A program made the translations under genes and the position numbers. Under the pieces are notes generated by a model. The model was not told where the DNA came from and did no database searches. It worked only from the letters and a program-made list of their open reading frames with translations. From positions 1-22,132 of IMG/VR virus record IMGVR_UViG_3300015264_000467: a stretch of 22,132 nt of DNA; one strand, 5' to 3'. This document shows positions 7,894 through 21,582 of this stretch, piece by piece. Numbering within the stretch: the first letter of the stretch is position 1; every line of letters starts with the position of its first letter. Origin of the DNA: a virus.

Positions 7894-10800
7894 ATGGCTC
7901 TGATGGGCGGAAAAGGCGGCGGGAAGGGCGCTCTCGCGGCAAAACCGAATCTGCTTTCTGCCTTGCGCGTGCAAACCAGTTCTTACGGGCAGGTGATACC
8001 GATCCTTTACGGACAGAACCGCATTGCAGCGCGGCTGATCTGGGCTGGTGACTTTGCGGCCATTCCGCACACATCCACAACTAAGGTAGGCGGCAAGGGG
8101 CTGGGCTCCGGCGGCGGCAACGCAATTTCGAATACGACTTACACATATCAGACCGCAGTCGCCATGGCGCTTTGCCAGGGGCCAATCTTGAATATTCACA
8201 ACGTCTGGGACACTAAGGGAAAATTGACCATGATTTCCGCCACGGTGCCCTTTACTGTTCCCGGCGGCGGCGGTGGGATTACCGTTACACCTCCAGGTGG
8301 CGGCGTGTTTCATTCGCACCGTGGAGTAGGCCGAGCGGACGCTTACAGTTTCTCGCAAACCGACTTCGGCTCAGACGGCTCAGTACCTTTTTCCGGAACG
8401 CAGCAGACGCCCATGACGCAGGTAGGCAGTTCTCCCGGCGCCGGACAGTTCACGCAATCGGGCGCGGCTTTTGCTTTCTCCGCGGCGGACGCCGGCAAAG
8501 TTGTCACCATCAGCTATGTCTATTCTGTTCCTGATTCCAACTCGAACGGCCAGCCGCAGCAAAAGCTGAGCCTTACGCTGTTTCTGGGCTCGCGTCCGCA
8601 GACCGCATGGAGCTATCTGACTTCGGCGCATCCTGGACAGGATCTTGGATACAACGGCATCGCCTATGTCGCCGCATCCGCCATGGATCTGGGCGAGAGC
8701 GGCACGCTGCCGAACCTGAGTTTTGAGGTGCTGAGCGCTATCACTTTCGGCGCGGGCATTGCCGACGCTGAGCCTTCCGTGATTATCGCCGACATCCTGG
8801 CTAACCAGTTTTACGGACTGGCCGGCGTGGTCACTCCGGGCGATCTCACGCAATACAAAAATTTCTGCACTGCCAACGGGCTCTTTCTTTCGCCGGTGCT
8901 GGACGCGCAAAAAGCCGCCAGCGACTGGATACAGGAAATCCTTGATATCACCAACGCCGCAGCGGTGTGGAGTGAAGGCGTTCTGAAAATCGTTCCTTAT
9001 GGCGACACCACGGCCGTGGGCAACGGAGCAACGTTCATTCCCAACACGTCGCCCATTTATGACCTGACCACCAGTGATCTTTTGACGCCTGTGCTGATCA
9101 AGCGGCCATCCGTGGCAGACGTGATGAATTCCGTCTCGATTGAATTTGCCAATCGCGCCAACGACTATAACCCGGACGTGGCGGAAGACAAAGACGAGGC
9201 CATGATCGCGCTTTACGGTTTGCGGAAGGCGTCACCAGTTCAGGCGCATTCGATCACGACAACCACTGTGGCCAAGTTTGCGGTCAATCTGCTGCGCAAG
9301 CGCTCGGTTGAAATCCGGGCGACATATACGTTTTCTCTCGGCTGGCAATTCAACCTGCTTGAGCCCATGGATCTGGTAACGCTCACCATCCCTGAACTGG
9401 GATACAACAAGAAGCCCGTGCGGATCACCGCCATGCGGGAAGACGATTCCGGCAAGCTTGAAGTGGACGCCGAAGACTTCCCCTGGGGCACTGCAACGCC
9501 TACGCTTTACCCGCATCAGACAGGAACGGGGTATGTGGCTCAGGCCAATTCTGATCCCGGCGCAATTTCAACGCCGATTATCTTTGAAGCCAATGACCGG
9601 CTGAGTTTGACTGGCAACTATGAAGTGTGGCTTGGCGCCTGCGGTCCCACAGTTGCGATCACCGGAGCAACGAATATCGCGGGCACGCCCATCAAGATCA
9701 CGGCCACTGGGCACAAGTTCAAGAGCGGACAGAAAGTGACCATCGCCGGCGTTGGCGGGAATACCGCGGCAAACAGCACATGGACGATCACGCAGATCGA
9801 TCCTGATAATTTCACGCTGGACGGCTCCATCGGCAACGCGGCTTACACTTCCGGAGGCGTTGCGGTGAATCAGGATTGGGGCGGCGCGTCGGTATGGGTT
9901 TCACCGGACAACAGCAACTATGTGCAGATCGGCAAAATGTACGGACCGTCGCGTATGGGAGTGCTCACGGCGCAACTGGTGTCATCGGCTGATCCTGATA
10001 CCACGCATACGATTGCCGTCGACGTCACGCAATCATCGGGGACGCTCAACTCCGGCACTCAATCAGACTGTGACAACTTTCGCACTCTCTGTTATGTGGA
10101 TGGCGAACTCATCAGCTACGAAGACGCGACGCTTACCGGTGCTTATCGTTATGACCTGGGCGCGCACGGTTCGCCGGCATCCATTACCGCGGCCAGCAAT
10201 GCCAGCCCGATCAAGATCACCGTGGCGAACCATGGCTTTGGCTCCGGCGAAACGATAGTGATCGCCGGTGTGGGCGGAAACACGGCGGCAAATGGAACGT
10301 GGGCCATCACCCTGGTCGATGCCAACAATTTCACTTTGAACGGCAGCACCGGAAACGGCGCGTACACATCGGGCGGAACAGCCGTGATTGCAGCGCGCCT
10401 CAGGCGCGGCGTCTTTGGATCGCCGAATACCACACACAACATTGGTTCTGTGTTCCTTCGGCTGGATGATGGAGTGTTTGTCTGGGAAGCCGATCCCACG
10501 CTGGTAGGAACGACCATCTGGTTCAAGTTCACCAGCTTCAACCGCATGGGCCTCATGGAACAGTCGCTGGCCAATGCCACAGCGTATAGCTTTGCGTTTA
10601 ATGGCACGTTCGGAAATATCGGCGATCCGCCATCGAACAACGCCACACTGGATTCCACTTTCATCAGTGGCACAGCCGACAACATCAGGATTTACGGCGC
10701 ATCCGTGGGCAGCTCATACACGGCATGGAAGCGCGATCAGACCCAACGCACCATTCCCGCGCAGACCTTGACGTTGGATAACCGGGGCACGGCAATCCAG

Positions 10801-11022
10801 GTCACCACGAATTATTGGGTGTCGTATGACTTCAACCAGGGCACTCACGTTGCCTGGATCAATTTGAATGATTACGTTCAGGCCATCGGACGCGGACAGA
10901 TGCGCGTCGGGCTGGTAAGCACGGTCAATTCATCCGGCACCGGAGGCACTACCGGCGGGCAGGGCTCATCGCCGGGCGGCGGCGGCTCCGGCGCTCCCGG
11001 ACGGCCATTGCCGGGGCTGTAA
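7894..11022 (+). CDS. Tail-tip / host-recognition protein (TipJ-like)
   Basis: A 1042-residue protein, start ATG 7894 after GAGG. The Gly-rich N-terminus leads to SYGQVIPILYGQNRIAARLI and QTAVAMALCQGPI, typical of the large tail protein following the NlpC gene. Residues 380-540 hold LKIVPYGD, VMNSVSIEFANRANDYN and the LEPMDLVTLTIPELGY region of the phage tail hub. Residues about 116-212 carry a beta domain also found in the major tail protein. Two 72-residue copies of an FCCH-like repeat sit at 587-658 and 763-833, each apparently inserted into a conserved motif (VWLGACG...WGGASVWVS, and YDLGAHG...ARLRRGVFG). The end is Gly/Ser-rich. It would bind the host surface or hold the fibres. Confidence 0.85.
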   Translation: MALMGGKGGGKGALAAKPNLLSALRVQTSSYGQVIPILYGQNRIAARLIWAGDFAAIPHTSTTKVGGKGLGSGGGNAISNTTYTYQTAVAMALCQGPILNIHNVWDTKGKLTMISATVPFTVPGGGGGITVTPPGGGVFHSHRGVGRADAYSFSQTDFGSDGSVPFSGTQQTPMTQVGSSPGAGQFTQSGAAFAFSAADAGKVVTISYVYSVPDSNSNGQPQQKLSLTLFLGSRPQTAWSYLTSAHPGQDLGYNGIAYVAASAMDLGESGTLPNLSFEVLSAITFGAGIADAEPSVIIADILANQFYGLAGVVTPGDLTQYKNFCTANGLFLSPVLDAQKAASDWIQEILDITNAAAVWSEGVLKIVPYGDTTAVGNGATFIPNTSPIYDLTTSDLLTPVLIKRPSVADVMNSVSIEFANRANDYNPDVAEDKDEAMIALYGLRKASPVQAHSITTTTVAKFAVNLLRKRSVEIRATYTFSLGWQFNLLEPMDLVTLTIPELGYNKKPVRITAMREDDSGKLEVDAEDFPWGTATPTLYPHQTGTGYVAQANSDPGAISTPIIFEANDRLSLTGNYEVWLGACGPTVAITGATNIAGTPIKITATGHKFKSGQKVTIAGVGGNTAANSTWTITQIDPDNFTLDGSIGNAAYTSGGVAVNQDWGGASVWVSPDNSNYVQIGKMYGPSRMGVLTAQLVSSADPDTTHTIAVDVTQSSGTLNSGTQSDCDNFRTLCYVDGELISYEDATLTGAYRYDLGAHGSPASITAASNASPIKITVANHGFGSGETIVIAGVGGNTAANGTWAITLVDANNFTLNGSTGNGAYTSGGTAVIAARLRRGVFGSPNTTHNIGSVFLRLDDGVFVWEADPTLVGTTIWFKFTSFNRMGLMEQSLANATAYSFAFNGTFGNIGDPPSNNATLDSTFISGTADNIRIYGASVGSSYTAWKRDQTQRTIPAQTLTLDNRGTAIQVTTNYWVSYDFNQGTHVAWINLNDYVQAIGRGQMRVGLVSTVNSSGTGGTTGGQGSSPGGGGSGAPGRPLPGL
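9652..9867 (+). repeat. FCCH-like domain copy 1 (coding)
   Basis: It encodes residues 587-658 of the tail-tip protein, from VAITGATN to SGGVAV, with the core VTIAGVGGNTAANSTWTIT and DNFTLDG. It is homologous to the copy at 10180-10392 and interrupts the motif that normally joins VWL.A.G to the WGG.xVWVS segment. Confidence 0.75.
10180..10392 (+). repeat. FCCH-like domain copy 2 (coding)
   Basis: It encodes residues 763-833, with the core IVIAGVGGNTAANGTWAIT and NNFTLNGSTGNGAYTSGG. It is clearly a paralogue of the copy at 9652-9867 and lies between YRYDLGAHGS and ARLRRGVFGS, which are adjacent in ordinary family members. Confidence 0.75.
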
Positions 11023-11174: not shown

Positions 11175-11320
11175 CGCTTCTTATTCCGCTTGACGGAGCG
11201 GAATGAAGCGGGGTACAAACAGGCTTGGGAAACGGATGCCAACCTGCATCCCTGCAGGGCCGTCAAGCATCATATAACTGTAACAATTAACAGGGTTTAA
11301 CCACCCGAGAGAGGAACCCT
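11175..11320. other. Structured leader before the small antitoxin-like gene
   Basis: Three inverted repeats are stacked here. CGCTTC-TT-ATTCCGCT pairs with AGCGGAAT-GAAGCG (11175-11210, 14 pairs with a TT bulge). GGATGC pairs with GCATCC (11234-11251). AGGGTT (11292-11297) pairs with AACCCT (11315-11320) around the ribosome site GAGAGG. There is no T run, so these are not intrinsic terminators. They may be operators or RNA structure controlling the module; this is inference. Confidence 0.45.
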
Positions 11321-11488
11321 ATGACACAGAGAGCCTTAAAGCAGCTCCGAGTTCTCAGTGCCGCGACCGTGCGTAATTCTCCACGCGTCCATCGTAAACT
11401 CTCGAAGGCGGGGAAGAGGGCTGATTCAGCCGTCGTCACGTCAGCGGCAAAGTACTATGTTGCATTGAAAAAGCTTGCCGAGAAGTAA
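11321..11488 (+). CDS. Small basic protein, putative antitoxin of the Doc module
   Basis: A 55-residue ORF with ATG 11321 and GAGAGGA about 7 bases upstream. The product is basic and helical, ending with AAKYYVALKKLAEK, and has no membrane segment. I cannot assign it to a named antitoxin family. The case for an antitoxin is its size, its position immediately before a Doc-type toxin frame, and the inverted repeat over its ribosome site, which could support autoregulation. The TAA stop is in the same frame as, and directly abuts, the toxin reading frame with no start codon between them. Alternatively it is the N-terminal part of one longer gene split by the stop. Confidence 0.5.
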   Translation: MTQRALKQLRVLSAATVRNSPRVHRKLSKAGKRADSAVVTSAAKYYVALKKLAEK

Positions 11489-12061
11489 GCCGATAATCGG
11501 CATCATGCTGCCTATATTGAGTATCTCCACGATTTCGGGATAGCGCTTTCTTGGCCCGGACTTGAGTCAGTCAAAGAGTACGACTGTTTAGATCTGAATC
11601 TGCTCGCATCAGCAGCAGAACAACCATTGCAGGCCGGATTTGGCGTAGAGTTTTACCCGACAATCTACGACAAGGCGGCCTGTTATTTTTTCCTCATTGC
11701 CGGTGGTCACATATTCGGCAACGGCAATAAGCGAACTGCTGTTCTGGTGGTCGATCAGTTCATGTGGGGGAACGGCTATTATCTCAATCTGTCGAATGAC
11801 AGGATCAGAAAACTTGCGGAACAAACTGCTTCTTATAAACCGCGTGGGGAAAATCACAAAGACGTGATCGCTGCCCTCAGTCGACTAATTCAAGATAACA
11901 GCTTTCCGTTCAGGTTTATTCGCAAGTCCAGGCCAAAACAATATCGCAAGTTTCACGAAATAAAAAACACAGTCAGGAAAGCCTTAGAATCTTGCGCCGA
12001 CGATCCAACGCAGCAAGCGGTTCGACATCTCGGTAAAATACCGCCAGCAACACGCCTTTAG
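11489..12061 (+). CDS. doc: Fic/Doc-family toxin (death-on-curing), start codon missing
   Basis: The frame encodes the Fic motif HIFGNGNKRTAV (family HxFx[D/N]xNKR), preceded by FYPTIYDKAACYFFLIAGG as in Doc proteins. Doc toxins phosphorylate EF-Tu and stop translation, and are held in check by an upstream antitoxin. The first conventional start is TTG 11627, but Doc-like sequence extends upstream: YIEYLHDFGIALSWPGLESV and LDLNLLASAAEQP match the usual N-terminal helices. That stretch runs back to the antitoxin TAA without ATG, GTG or TTG; an ATT lies at 11516. So the gene is either inactivated, started at an unusual codon, read through from the upstream ORF, or truncated at 11627. About 40 basic residues follow the Fic core. 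Family assignment is firm; activity is doubtful. Confidence 0.7.
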   Translation, partial: ADNRHHAAYIEYLHDFGIALSWPGLESVKEYDCLDLNLLASAAEQPLQAGFGVEFYPTIYDKAACYFFLIAGGHIFGNGNKRTAVLVVDQFMWGNGYYLNLSNDRIRKLAEQTASYKPRGENHKDVIAALSRLIQDNSFPFRFIRKSRPKQYRKFHEIKNTVRKALESCADDPTQQAVRHLGKIPPATRL

Positions 12062-12093: not shown

Positions 12094-13725
12094 TTGAAAA
12101 AACTGCTAACAGTTTTCGCATTCGTGTGTCTGGGGCTCGGCGCCCACGCGCAGAATCTCACCACTGTGAACGGCTCCAACATTACCGATATCAACGGGAC
12201 CAAGCTGGCGGCCGGGCAGCTCTGCTTTCTGATTACCGACAGCCAGGACAACCCGATTTCCGTCTCCATTGGCGGCGGTGGACAGGCGCTCAAGCGCGGC
12301 TATTGTTCCACGGTGACGGCGGGTGTGGTTACATCGTTCACCGTGCCGAATCCGGCCAACACGTCGCCCACGGGTATTTACTACCGCGTGACGGTCAAAG
12401 ACTCTTCCACGGGACAGGAAGTGTTGCGCTATGCGCTCGTGAGTTTTACCGGGGCGACTTTCAATTTCGATAACTACGCTCCCACGAACCTGGCGTCCGC
12501 TGCGCCTCTCACCGGGACCGTCGTAAACGGAAACTTGAGCGGCAACGGCAACGCCACTTTCACTGGGACCGTCACGGGATCGAATATCCCCAGTTCGATC
12601 ATTCAGCAAATTTTCAGCGCTGGAATCGGACAAACACAGCGCACGGGGGTGAACTTCTTTTCCGGCATCACCTGTTCCGATAACGCGGGAACATCGCGGA
12701 CAGATTGTCGCCCGGGAACATTGAACACGTTGACATTCTCAGCCACGCCCACATTCGATTGCTCTTTGGGCAGCGTGCAAAAACTCACGCTCACCGGCAA
12801 CGTAACCAGCTCATCGCTGGCGAACTGCCAGGCGGGGCAGTGGGTGGCTTTTGAAATCTGCCAGGATGCGACTGGGGGGCGGACGTTCGCAAATCCTACC
12901 GGACTGAATCAGTGGAGCGCTTTGCCGATTGCTGCAAACGCCTGCGCCGTTCAACAGTACTCATTTGATTCGCTGAATGTGGGCTTCCCGGACATGATGC
13001 CCGCGCTCACGGGCGATGTCACAAGCTCGGCCACGTCCACCGTTACCACGGTTGCGAAGGTGAATGGAGTAAGTTATCCCTCCGGCCCTGCAACACACAG
13101 CGTTCCTGTGACCACGGCGGCAAACACTGAGACGTACAAAGTGATTCCAGATTGTACGGATACGACCGGCAACCACATCAACTACACGCAGAGCACAGAT
13201 GTCTGGAGCTGCGGCGTGAGCGTTCCAGCGAATACCGTCACGACCACTGCGACACAGACGCTGAGCGCAAAGACGCTTGCCAGCGCCGCGTTTACTGGGA
13301 CGGAAACAGGGATGTCGATCACTTCCCCGGCAATCTCTGATCCGACGATAACCGGCAACACTAATGTAAAGCGCCTTAAAGCCAATCAAGGATCGTCTCT
13401 TGTGGTGGGGGACGTTGGCGGTTTGGGCGCCGGCTGGGGATCTACCGCAAGCGTTTCATCTGTGGTGGGAAACGATGTAATTGGTCAGATCAGCATCACG
13501 TCGAATGGAACGGGGCAAGCCGTCAATGCCGGTCTGACTCTCACGTTTCATGATGGCACTTGGACAACTGCGCCCATCTGTCTTGCGGTTAGGGGAGACG
13601 GTTTTTCCCCGCAAGGCATAATGATAGCGAATGCTGCGACCGCGACAAACGTATCATTTTTCTTCAATGCGCTTCCAGTTGCAGGAACGACTTACACATT
13701 GAGTTTCATTTGCGTTGGAAAGTAA
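12094..13725 (+). CDS. Secreted fibre-like protein with Sec signal peptide
   Basis: The start is TTG 12094 after AGGAGAAAG. The 543-residue product opens with a clear signal peptide (MKKLLTVFAFVCLGLGAHA, cleavage likely before Gln20). The mature protein is rich in Thr, Ser, Gly, Asn and Ala and low in charge. It has repeated short beta motifs (LTGTVVNGNLSGNGNATFTG, LTLTGNVTSSS, ALTGDVTSSATSTVTTVAKV), the pattern of phage tail fibres and beta-helix adhesins. The C-terminus (LTFHDGTWTTAPICLAVRGD...) resembles fibre tip domains. Position after the tail module suggests a fibre, but a signal peptide is odd for a virion protein assembled in the cytoplasm. It may instead be exported by the lysogen. 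I cannot name the family. Confidence 0.6.
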   Translation: MKKLLTVFAFVCLGLGAHAQNLTTVNGSNITDINGTKLAAGQLCFLITDSQDNPISVSIGGGGQALKRGYCSTVTAGVVTSFTVPNPANTSPTGIYYRVTVKDSSTGQEVLRYALVSFTGATFNFDNYAPTNLASAAPLTGTVVNGNLSGNGNATFTGTVTGSNIPSSIIQQIFSAGIGQTQRTGVNFFSGITCSDNAGTSRTDCRPGTLNTLTFSATPTFDCSLGSVQKLTLTGNVTSSSLANCQAGQWVAFEICQDATGGRTFANPTGLNQWSALPIAANACAVQQYSFDSLNVGFPDMMPALTGDVTSSATSTVTTVAKVNGVSYPSGPATHSVPVTTAANTETYKVIPDCTDTTGNHINYTQSTDVWSCGVSVPANTVTTTATQTLSAKTLASAAFTGTETGMSITSPAISDPTITGNTNVKRLKANQGSSLVVGDVGGLGAGWGSTASVSSVVGNDVIGQISITSNGTGQAVNAGLTLTFHDGTWTTAPICLAVRGDGFSPQGIMIANAATATNVSFFFNALPVAGTTYTLSFICVGK

Positions 13726-13744: not shown

Positions 13745-14380
13745 GTGAACGTTCACTCATTCTATCGGCCAATTCTCCAGCACTTCCGTAAAGGTCGCAT
13801 GGCCTTGTTCGCTGATCGCTTTGCCATCGATCAAAGAACTACGGTGTTGGATATGGGGGGCGGCGCTTTCAATTGGACGATGGTACGAGAGCGCCCCGAA
13901 CTCACCATCCTTGACGTGTACGACCATCCAAATAAAGCGCCGTGGGCTGTCTACGTTGTCGGCAATGGATGCGCAACGGATTTTGAGACCGGCAGTTTTG
14001 ATATCGTCTTCAGCAACTCGGTGATCGAGCATGTCGGCGGGGTTGAGCGGCAGCGGCAATTCGCCAATGAGTGTATGCGGTGTGGGCGCAGCTTTTTCGT
14101 TCAGACGCCGAATAAGTGGTTCCCGTTCGACACCCACACCCTGATGCCGTTTGCCCATTGGCTACCACAGTGGATGTTTAGAAAACTTCTGCGCTTTTCT
14201 CCCAGATTCTTGGTTTTCAAGTCAGACGCGGGAGATTTGGAGGATTTCGCTAATATGCGCCTGTTGACGAAGCGAGATATGCAAGAACTGTTTCCGGGCG
14301 CTGAGATAATTGAGGAAAAGTTTTGTGGGATTACGAAGAGCCTTATCGCGGTTTCGCCTCTTCCTTGTTCAGATCAATAA
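13745..14380 (+). CDS. Class I SAM-dependent methyltransferase
   Basis: A 211-residue protein starting with GTG 13745, 3 bases after GAGGGG and 19 bases past the fibre-like gene. Motif I is VLDMGGG (residues 34-40), an acidic loop LDVYD follows near 57, and FDIVFSNSVIEHV (85-97) is the typical post-motif segment of Methyltransf_11-type enzymes that act on small molecules or glycans. A C-terminal region (FDTHTLMPFAHWLPQWMFRK) is seen in enzymes near sugar or lipid modification genes. The substrate is unknown. It probably shares a transcript with the secreted protein. It overlaps by 38 bases the end of a convergent small membrane gene. Confidence 0.7.
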   Translation: MNVHSFYRPILQHFRKGRMALFADRFAIDQRTTVLDMGGGAFNWTMVRERPELTILDVYDHPNKAPWAVYVVGNGCATDFETGSFDIVFSNSVIEHVGGVERQRQFANECMRCGRSFFVQTPNKWFPFDTHTLMPFAHWLPQWMFRKLLRFSPRFLVFKSDAGDLEDFANMRLLTKRDMQELFPGAEIIEEKFCGITKSLIAVSPLPCSDQ

Positions 14381-14504
14381 AGTCATCTGGCCCGACCCCT
14401 GGACCTCGATGATGCAATTTGAGATACACAAAGGCGATTGCCCCCAGCAGAAAAGGGGAAATAACAATCGCCAATGTGATCAAAATAATCCACCGCCAGG
14501 GCAT
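14343..14504 (-). CDS. Small single-pass membrane protein
   Basis: This 53-residue minus-strand ORF starts with ATG at 14504. It has one strong transmembrane helix (WIILITLAIVISPFLLGAIA) after a Trp-Arg-Trp start, then a His/Lys juxtamembrane patch (KLHHRGPGVGPDD) and a charged tail ending EEAKPR. Hydrophobicity, positive-inside signals and clean ending make it credible despite its size. It lies 71 bases after the minus-strand methyltransferase stop and its 3' end overlaps the convergent methyltransferase. In-frame codons upstream of the ATG also read as hydrophobic (FFWAAFTVTALSISI) up to a TAG, so the gene may be a truncated two-helix protein. No function recognised. Confidence 0.5.
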   Translation of the reverse strand: MPWRWIILITLAIVISPFLLGAIAFVYLKLHHRGPGVGPDDFIDLNKEEAKPR

Positions 14505-14575
14505 GACGGCAAGTCTATCACTAATGGAAATTGAGAGCGCCGTAACGGTAAACGCCGCCCAAAAGAACTAGATGG

Positions 14576-15223
14576 TCATGAAATCACGGCCGTCACGGCC
14601 GTATTCGGGCGACCGTAGTTGTTTCCCAGGAACATTTTCTTCCAGTAGAAACCAATGAGATGCCGCCGGCCAATGAGTCTCCAGCCGCCATTGAACTGTT
14701 CGCGCTGGGTCACGGTGAATCCAGAGCCTTCCAACATGCTACAGAGAAGCTGCAAGGGGTAGGGGCGAACGTGAGTTGGATCCAGCCAGAATATTTCGCC
14801 GATGATCGTAAGGTCTTCGGGGTTTGGGGTGACGATTACCAGCTTGCCGCCTGGGCGCAGAACGCGACGGCAGGCCTCGATCAGGCGCGTTGCATTTTCG
14901 AAATCCATGTGCTCGATGACATGGCTGCAAAAGATCCCGCCGAACTTCTGCTGCGTGGTCTCGAGAAAAGGGAGGCACTCAGCCTGCTCGATATTGAACC
15001 CATGGCCGCGCGAAGCCTGCACCGCTTCATCGGCGTGGTCAAGCCCGACTGCTTCAATGCCGGCATCTTTGAGCAGAGAAAGAAAAATTCCGCGACCGCA
15101 GCCAATGTCCAGTACCGGAGAGCACCCACGGAACCGTTGCACAAAACGTTGTTGAAGGTACCGTACCGCGCCCTCGCTGGCGCCAAATTCATAAAGCGAG
15201 TGTTTCATCTGCCTTGACTCCAT
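14576..15223 (-). CDS. Class I SAM-dependent methyltransferase
   Basis: A 215-residue enzyme on the minus strand. Motif I is VLDIGCGRG (37-45), the acidic residue ending motif II is in GLDHADEA (62), and FGGIFCSHVIEHM (94-106) followed by RRVLRPGGKLVIVTPNP gives a full set of Methyltransf_11/23 motifs. The ATG at 15208 (fifteen bases in) has GGAG nine bases upstream and could be the true start. The fold is certain; the substrate is not visible. With the plus-strand enzyme at 13745 and the next minus gene it forms a three-methyltransferase block beside the fibre-like gene. Such blocks in prophages often modify surface polysaccharide. Confidence 0.75.
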   Translation of the reverse strand: MESRQMKHSLYEFGASEGAVRYLQQRFVQRFRGCSPVLDIGCGRGIFLSLLKDAGIEAVGLDHADEAVQASRGHGFNIEQAECLPFLETTQQKFGGIFCSHVIEHMDFENATRLIEACRRVLRPGGKLVIVTPNPEDLTIIGEIFWLDPTHVRPYPLQLLCSMLEGSGFTVTQREQFNGGWRLIGRRHLIGFYWKKMFLGNNYGRPNTAVTAVIS

Positions 15224-15332
15224 TTTCCCGGGAAAGAAGAGAGTTTATCAGAGCGAACTATTGCAGCGAGACAGTCGGGAGTCGATCACAACCACCGGGG
15301 ACTGCGGGTAGCCGCCGTTCCGAGGCGGGCGG

Positions 15333-16142
15333 TCAACGCTTGAAGGCGGCTCCAAAGCGGTTTCCCACCAGGGACAGACCGACTTGTTTGCCGGCGATGA
15401 AGCGGGCGAAAGCTTTGCCCATATGGATGTCGTCGGAGAGAAGAACGCCGCTGGCGGCCATTTTTTGCCAGGCGGCATTGAATTCAAAAGTCATATTTCT
15501 AGTGGTGTGCAGGCTGTCATGAAGAAACAGATCAGGCGCAGGCAGGTCCCGCAGAAGGCGCGGGAGAAGATCGCGGGAGCGGCCGCGTAACAGGGTCCAG
15601 CGGCTGCGCAAGTGTTGCGGAACAAAGCTTCCGGCGAATTCTTCAGCGCCGATGGGCGGCAGGTCAATGCTCCAGAGATGGCCTTCACCGTTGGCGGCAA
15701 GGGCCTGCAAAATGAAAGCGGTCGTCACGCCGCTGCCGACCCCGGTTTCCACCACCACGCGCGGACGTAAAGCCCGGCAAATGACATAACAAAAATCCGG
15801 CAGTCCCGCATCGGCATCATGAACTGCCGCCGACGCTGGCCTGTTTAAGCGTGCTCTGCTGGCGGCGATGTGCTCACGTATCTCCACCGCTGCTGGCTCC
15901 TGGTGAAACCCGTTCAGTTCCACTCCGAGATATTTCGAGCTCAGATCAAGCATCGCCGCAAGATCAAGCCCGGTGGAAGCAGCGGGAAGTTGCGGCGGCG
16001 AGACCATCCCTTCGGCTTTGGTCTTGACGCGGTCATAAAACTCGGAGGGACGTCTGAACAGCAGTTTCAACAGCAAGCGATATTTCTGAAATGAGGCCTG
16101 ATGCACAGTCGGCATTTTAGCTGACGCGGCCGCCGCGTTCAC
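15333..16142 (-). CDS. SAM-dependent methyltransferase (Methyltransf_24-like)
   Basis: A 269-residue protein with a long helical N-terminus, then VVVETGVGSGVTTAFIL (129-145) as the SAM-binding loop, LWSIDLPP (157-163) as the acidic-loop strand and PDLFLHDSLHT (203-212), the pattern of the class often placed in glycan or cephalosporin-hydroxylase-like O-methyltransferase groups. The given GTG start (16142) lacks a clear ribosome site; ATG 16115 is an alternative nine residues in. The gene lies 109 bases upstream of the second minus methyltransferase, same strand, so they may be co-transcribed. The substrate is unknown. Confidence 0.7.
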   Translation of the reverse strand: MNAAAASAKMPTVHQASFQKYRLLLKLLFRRPSEFYDRVKTKAEGMVSPPQLPAASTGLDLAAMLDLSSKYLGVELNGFHQEPAAVEIREHIAASRARLNRPASAAVHDADAGLPDFCYVICRALRPRVVVETGVGSGVTTAFILQALAANGEGHLWSIDLPPIGAEEFAGSFVPQHLRSRWTLLRGRSRDLLPRLLRDLPAPDLFLHDSLHTTRNMTFEFNAAWQKMAASGVLLSDDIHMGKAFARFIAGKQVGLSLVGNRFGAAFKR

Positions 16143-20979: not shown

Positions 20980-21582
20980 TTACCGGCTGTCACCGCTGGG
21001 ACTGGAGCCGACAGCTTTGCCTTTATCCAGTTTGGCATTCATCTGCTGGGCTTTTTCCAGATGTTTTTGCAGCGTGGGGAGCGTCTTGCCGGCCCATTGC
21101 TTTACGTCAGGATCTTTGGCGGTCTCTGACTTGTCCGTAAATTCCTGAACATCTTTTTGATGGTCCTCGACCATGCTATCCATATAGTCTTTATCGAGTT
21201 GTTTACCGGTGTCGCTGGACAGTTTTGCCTGGAGCGTTTTGGCGTCGTCGGGCAGATCGTCATTGAAATTGAGATTCTTGGATTGCGCGAGTTCCTGCAG
21301 TTCATTGAGCGCGGTGGTGTGGTCCTTCACCATCATCTGGGCAAACTGCTTTACGCTGGGATTCTTACTCTTGGCGGCGACGATTTTTCCCAGCTCGATT
21401 TCAGCGCTATTGCCCTGGGCTGCCCTGGTGACGAAGTCCTGATCAGAGCTGCTGGAAGGGCTGGAAGCAGCGGCTCCTGAATTTGGTTGAGCTGCGGTAT
21501 CAGGCGTGGACGCTTTGTTTGTGTTGGTGCAGCCAACACTTATCAAACCCAGTATCAACAGGGCGAATAGGCTGTGTTTCAT
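20980..21582 (-). CDS. DUF4142 lipoprotein
   Basis: A 200-residue protein on the minus strand, ATG at 21582 after AAGGAG. It has a lipoprotein signal peptide ending SVGC (Cys18), a Ser/Ala-rich linker to about residue 48, and the DUF4142 ferritin-like helical domain: FVTRAAQGNSAEIELGKI, VKQFAQMMVKDHTTALNEL, MDSMVEDHQKDVQEF and WAGKTLPTLQKHLEKAQ. The paired His residues in KDHTTA and EDHQKD are typical. Members are envelope proteins of unclear role, frequent in soil bacteria. It lies outside the phage module and on the opposite strand, so it probably marks host chromosome. Confidence 0.85.
   Translation of the reverse strand: MKHSLFALLILGLISVGCTNTNKASTPDTAAQPNSGAAASSPSSSSDQDFVTRAAQGNSAEIELGKIVAAKSKNPSVKQFAQMMVKDHTTALNELQELAQSKNLNFNDDLPDDAKTLQAKLSSDTGKQLDKDYMDSMVEDHQKDVQEFTDKSETAKDPDVKQWAGKTLPTLQKHLEKAQQMNAKLDKGKAVGSSPSGDSR

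Follow-up and report, generated by a model that had tools for sequence, protein, structure and literature searches.

Can a toxin be made from a frame that opens directly behind the stop codon of another gene and has no start codon of its own? This question is raised by a temperate phage from IMG/VR (record IMGVR_UViG_3300015264_000467, positions 1 to 22,132; the whole stretch of 22,132 nucleotides is called the window below). Translation of 11321-12061 yields one frame, M...KLAEK, stop, ADNRHHAAYIEYLHD...TRL, stop, with a lone internal stop codon. A 55-codon ORF and a Doc/Fic frame thus abut in phase at TAA 11486-11488, as the preliminary description of this DNA had claimed. The locus is probably best explained as a Doc-type toxin–antitoxin moron of which the toxin was inactivated at its N terminus, leaving an intact and probably expressed antitoxin of 55 aa. 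The features of the locus are listed in Table 1.

Table 1. Features of the toxin–antitoxin cassette in the window
Feature	Position	Strand	Remark
Cargo (moron) segment	11023..12093	.	Missing at the same site in sister phages
Inverted repeat ATTCCGCT-6-AGCGGAAT, candidate operator	11183..11204	+	5′ of the antitoxin-like gene
Antitoxin-like gene, 55 aa, predicted helical	11321..11488	+	In L128 and L129, homologs stand immediately 5′ of Doc
Spacer GCCGATAATCGGC, 13 nt, inverted repeat	11489..11501	+	Length as in L128 and L129
ATC at the place of the L128/L129 toxin ATG	11502..11504	+	One base fewer than L010 right after
Sole ATG close by, in another phase than the toxin body; its frame ends after 12 codons	11505..11543	+	Reads MLPILSISTISG, then stop
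Doc/Fic toxin body, open, HIFGNGNKRTA motif, C-terminal extension past typical Doc length	11516..12061	+	Profile matches

The Toxin Frame, the Small Upstream Gene and Their Location

Death-on-curing toxins (TIGR01550) are characterized by toxicity and by phosphorylation of EF-Tu. The Doc/Fic frame of the window is open for 190 codons (11489-12061) and its assignment, made earlier from the letters alone, is borne out by matches to Pfam Fic (PF02661; 3.3e-9), to NCBIfam TIGR01550 (39.9 bits, 4.1e-10, above the curated cut-off of 38.65) and to PHROG 577 'Doc-like toxin' (1.1e-16). By these matches, the frame is a real coding sequence. It additionally matches the solved death-on-curing protein 9vzc, and when the 181-codon toxin body was shuffled 20,000 times, no shuffle remained open. 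The active-site motif HxFx(D/N)(A/G)NKRT is present as HIFGNGNKRT, in which the N in place of the motif D is shared with other Docs in the alignment. The complete N terminus and usable start of the TIGR01550 class are lacking in the window toxin. The toxin was modelled poorly by AlphaFold (pLDDT 57), and this model was left unused.

In type II toxin–antitoxin pairs, a small protein neutralizes the toxin. A small gene directly 5′ of the toxin, kept together with it, is found in the window and its nearest copy as well as in two distant phage records, L128 and L129, and because of this position in three records the 55-aa protein is taken to be an antitoxin. Neither Phd nor any other antitoxin family of Pfam, NCBIfam, PHROGs or PADLOC matches this protein; in NCBIfam it hits a helicase-like model alone, and that marginally (E 0.079). 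AlphaFold predicts two helices (pLDDT 82), a model too simple for a useful fold search. The gene is intact and probably expressed; it is preceded by the ribosome-binding-like AGAGAGGA, and a promoter scan found none.

The cassette sits between a tail protein gene (7894-11022) and a putative fibre gene (12094-13725). The tail protein is present at 37 loci, of which only that of the nearest copy, L010, has the cassette as well. In 12 sister loci having both flanks, the tail-to-fibre gap measures 18-300 nt and contains no cassette. This absence from at least 12 sister phages at the same site indicates that the cassette is a mobile moron. In another locus, L025, the same tail-to-fibre slot holds a different cargo ORF (9130-9727; a 152-codon open frame on the minus strand), which suggests a general moron site. 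Further along the window (13745-16142), three different methyltransferase-like genes, two of them on the minus strand, are flanked by the putative fibre gene and an HNH endonuclease gene and are possibly surface-modification cargo. Past the integrase, a DUF4142 gene (20983-21582) possibly belongs to the host chromosome, so that the record may represent an integrated prophage end. From gene content, the host can be guessed to be one of the soil Acidobacteriota.

Start Codon and Reading Frame at the Junction

After the TAA, the toxin frame contains no ATG, GTG or TTG until TTG 11627; the only codons close to a start are ATT 11516, ATA 11540, CTG 11594 and CTG 11600. The preliminary description had stated this absence correctly for the toxin frame but had omitted ATG 11505, which is out of phase with the toxin body. 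It had also rightly placed TTG 11627 inside the domain. That a complete domain natively starts at this codon is ruled out, as the codon lies downstream of the N-terminal part common to relatives and initiation there would cost approximately 37 of the shared residues.

The junction can be compared with that of L128 and L129, in which the same pair has an intact toxin (identities of 45% and 35% for the antitoxin and of 38% and 35% for the toxin, respectively). In both, the antitoxin TAA is followed by 13 nt ending in GC and then by the toxin ATG in the +1 frame, without any overlap. In the window, the TAA and 13 nt ending in GC are followed by ATC, directly behind which the frame is off by one base. 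The earlier model, in which an ancestral TAATGGCC overlap (TAATG) lost its TG, is abandoned because of the junctions of the two intact relatives, neither of which has an overlap. That the toxin body now lies in the antitoxin frame is explained instead by loss of the start codon together with a frameshift, 13-16 nt behind the TAA. The spacer at 11489-11501 is a perfect palindrome, which the distant pairs do not share.

The nearest copy, in IMG/VR 3300048997_000315 (L002/L010), is a near-identical cassette at the same position. Its junction has ATC too and then continues in frame with the toxin body, being three bases shorter than in L128 and L129, and its toxin carries deletions of 10 nt and 1 nt further in. 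Over 7.75 kb of approximately 98% identity, window and L010 differ by only three indels (1, 10 and 1 nt), all of which fall in the 573-nt toxin region; random placement would bring all three there with a chance of about 4e-4. Substitutions between the two number three in these 573 nt and zero in the 168 nt of the antitoxin, which is 100% identical. This identity is compatible with selection on the antitoxin, for which it would be a weak argument, as at such divergence it does not amount to proof. The L010 tape-measure gene (790-1400) has two frame breaks beside short homopolymers, in a region that is strongly unlike the window and lies outside the 7.75 kb. Due to these breaks L010 is an imperfect witness, and the lesions in its toxin may stem in part from misassembly or from the general decay of a prophage.

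Probable Silencing of the Toxin and Competing Readings

The silenced toxin beside an intact antitoxin, which the preliminary description had put forward as one outcome, is the best-supported reading: with start codon and reading frame lost, the toxin is most likely silenced, and we infer from the sequence that it is not made. In the lineage of the window phage, the cassette would have entered the genome between the genes of the tail protein and the fibre. The ancestor shared by window and L010 would then have lost the ATG by substitution or by a 3-nt deletion, and a one-base deletion beside the lost start would have followed in the window lineage. What the phage keeps would be a harmless remnant, with a small expressed antitoxin and a toxin that is untranslated or barely translated. 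As the body is fully open and the catalytic motif kept, toxin decay may be recent, or low-level expression may continue.

A variant of this history, in which the toxin is likewise silenced, takes ATG 11505 as the ancestral start and places a 7-nt deletion before 11516. The ATGCTG at 11505 equals the ATGCTG start of L129, but a spacer longer by 3 nt, the 7-nt deletion and the extra base of L010 make three events vs. two, and the preferred history also preserves the 13-nt length of the spacer. This variant is accordingly considered rather unlikely, and loss of the ATG plus a 1-nt deletion is the simplest history, because it needs fewer events.

It would be more surprising still if the toxin were produced at a very low level by design, through readthrough of TAA 11486 or with the near-cognate ATT 11516 as start codon. 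Such a design would account for a body that is open over 190 codons with an intact motif, and ATT 11516 lies only a few residues inside the start of the relatives. However, no relative has this arrangement, the intact ones use ATG, the nearest copy is broken further in, and the RNA fold around the stop (z = -0.52) offers nothing notable for readthrough. The window is out of frame by no more than one base, which may be a sequencing error. A full artefact of sequencing or assembly, under which the true N terminus is in frame as in L010, with a TTG start inside the antitoxin end, profits from this one deciding base and from the in-frame TTG start overlapping the antitoxin that L010 does have (ORF from L002 4971). 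Nevertheless, this explanation appears improbable, since the other phage genes inspected in the window are long uninterrupted ORFs and the missing ATG is common to both records, so that at least the start loss is not the error of one assembly.

Antitoxin-like Genes with and without a Toxin in Other Phages

The intact pair of L128 and L129 belongs to a different phage group and stands at another genomic site, where it follows a conserved 128-aa gene. In five of the eight records of this group neither gene is present in the stretch after the 128-aa gene. A further member, L209, has an antitoxin homolog (35% identity), but its whole 21.6-kb record is free of Doc matches. Altogether, the toxin is intact in two, broken in two and absent in one (L209) of the five antitoxin copies found. 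Because of the L209 orphan, an antitoxin without a working toxin is a recurring pattern, albeit in small numbers. Other searches covered plasmids and phages (antitoxin, nothing found) and genome contigs (single toxin query, nothing found), and a repeat scan with an antitoxin profile of four members gave no more copies. A profile scan returned general Docs without the window-type antitoxin.

Compared to Phd-Doc of phage P1 and the TIGR01550 toxins, the window has a homologous toxin with an intact HxFx(N/D)(G/A)NKRT motif, an antitoxin-like gene directly 5′ and a temperate phage as carrier. It differs in that the small protein comes out as Phd or AbrB-like in none of the libraries searched and that the toxin has a C-terminal extension and has lost start and frame. 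Streptococcus prophages also carry phd-doc morons as cargo, located in the terminase-portal interval in Javan575 (L008), but there the antitoxin is an annotated Phd and the toxin gene is uninterrupted. The antitoxin-like gene without a working toxin further resembles orphan antitoxins for which anti-addiction roles have been proposed, although their common use remains to be demonstrated (PMC7354431).

The leftover antitoxin may be a passing relic, or it may have an anti-addiction role, protecting from Doc toxins that the host or rival elements carry. Only tentatively can it be suggested that long Doc toxins have a new antitoxin family of their own, with the 55-aa helical protein as its founding member, and that phages repeatedly drop the toxin and keep the antitoxin as a shield against addiction or abortive infection. 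The locus adds a candidate antitoxin family, unnamed in current libraries, whose partner in uncultured phages is a Doc subfamily. Phages with the intact pair, with a broken toxin, with only the antitoxin and with no cassette form a small natural series in which toxin loss with retention of the antitoxin is testable. In L209 (4001-5353), two small membrane-like ORFs and a DUF6941 protein come after the orphan homolog, in a position that in the relatives is taken by Doc or left empty; they could be replacement cargo.
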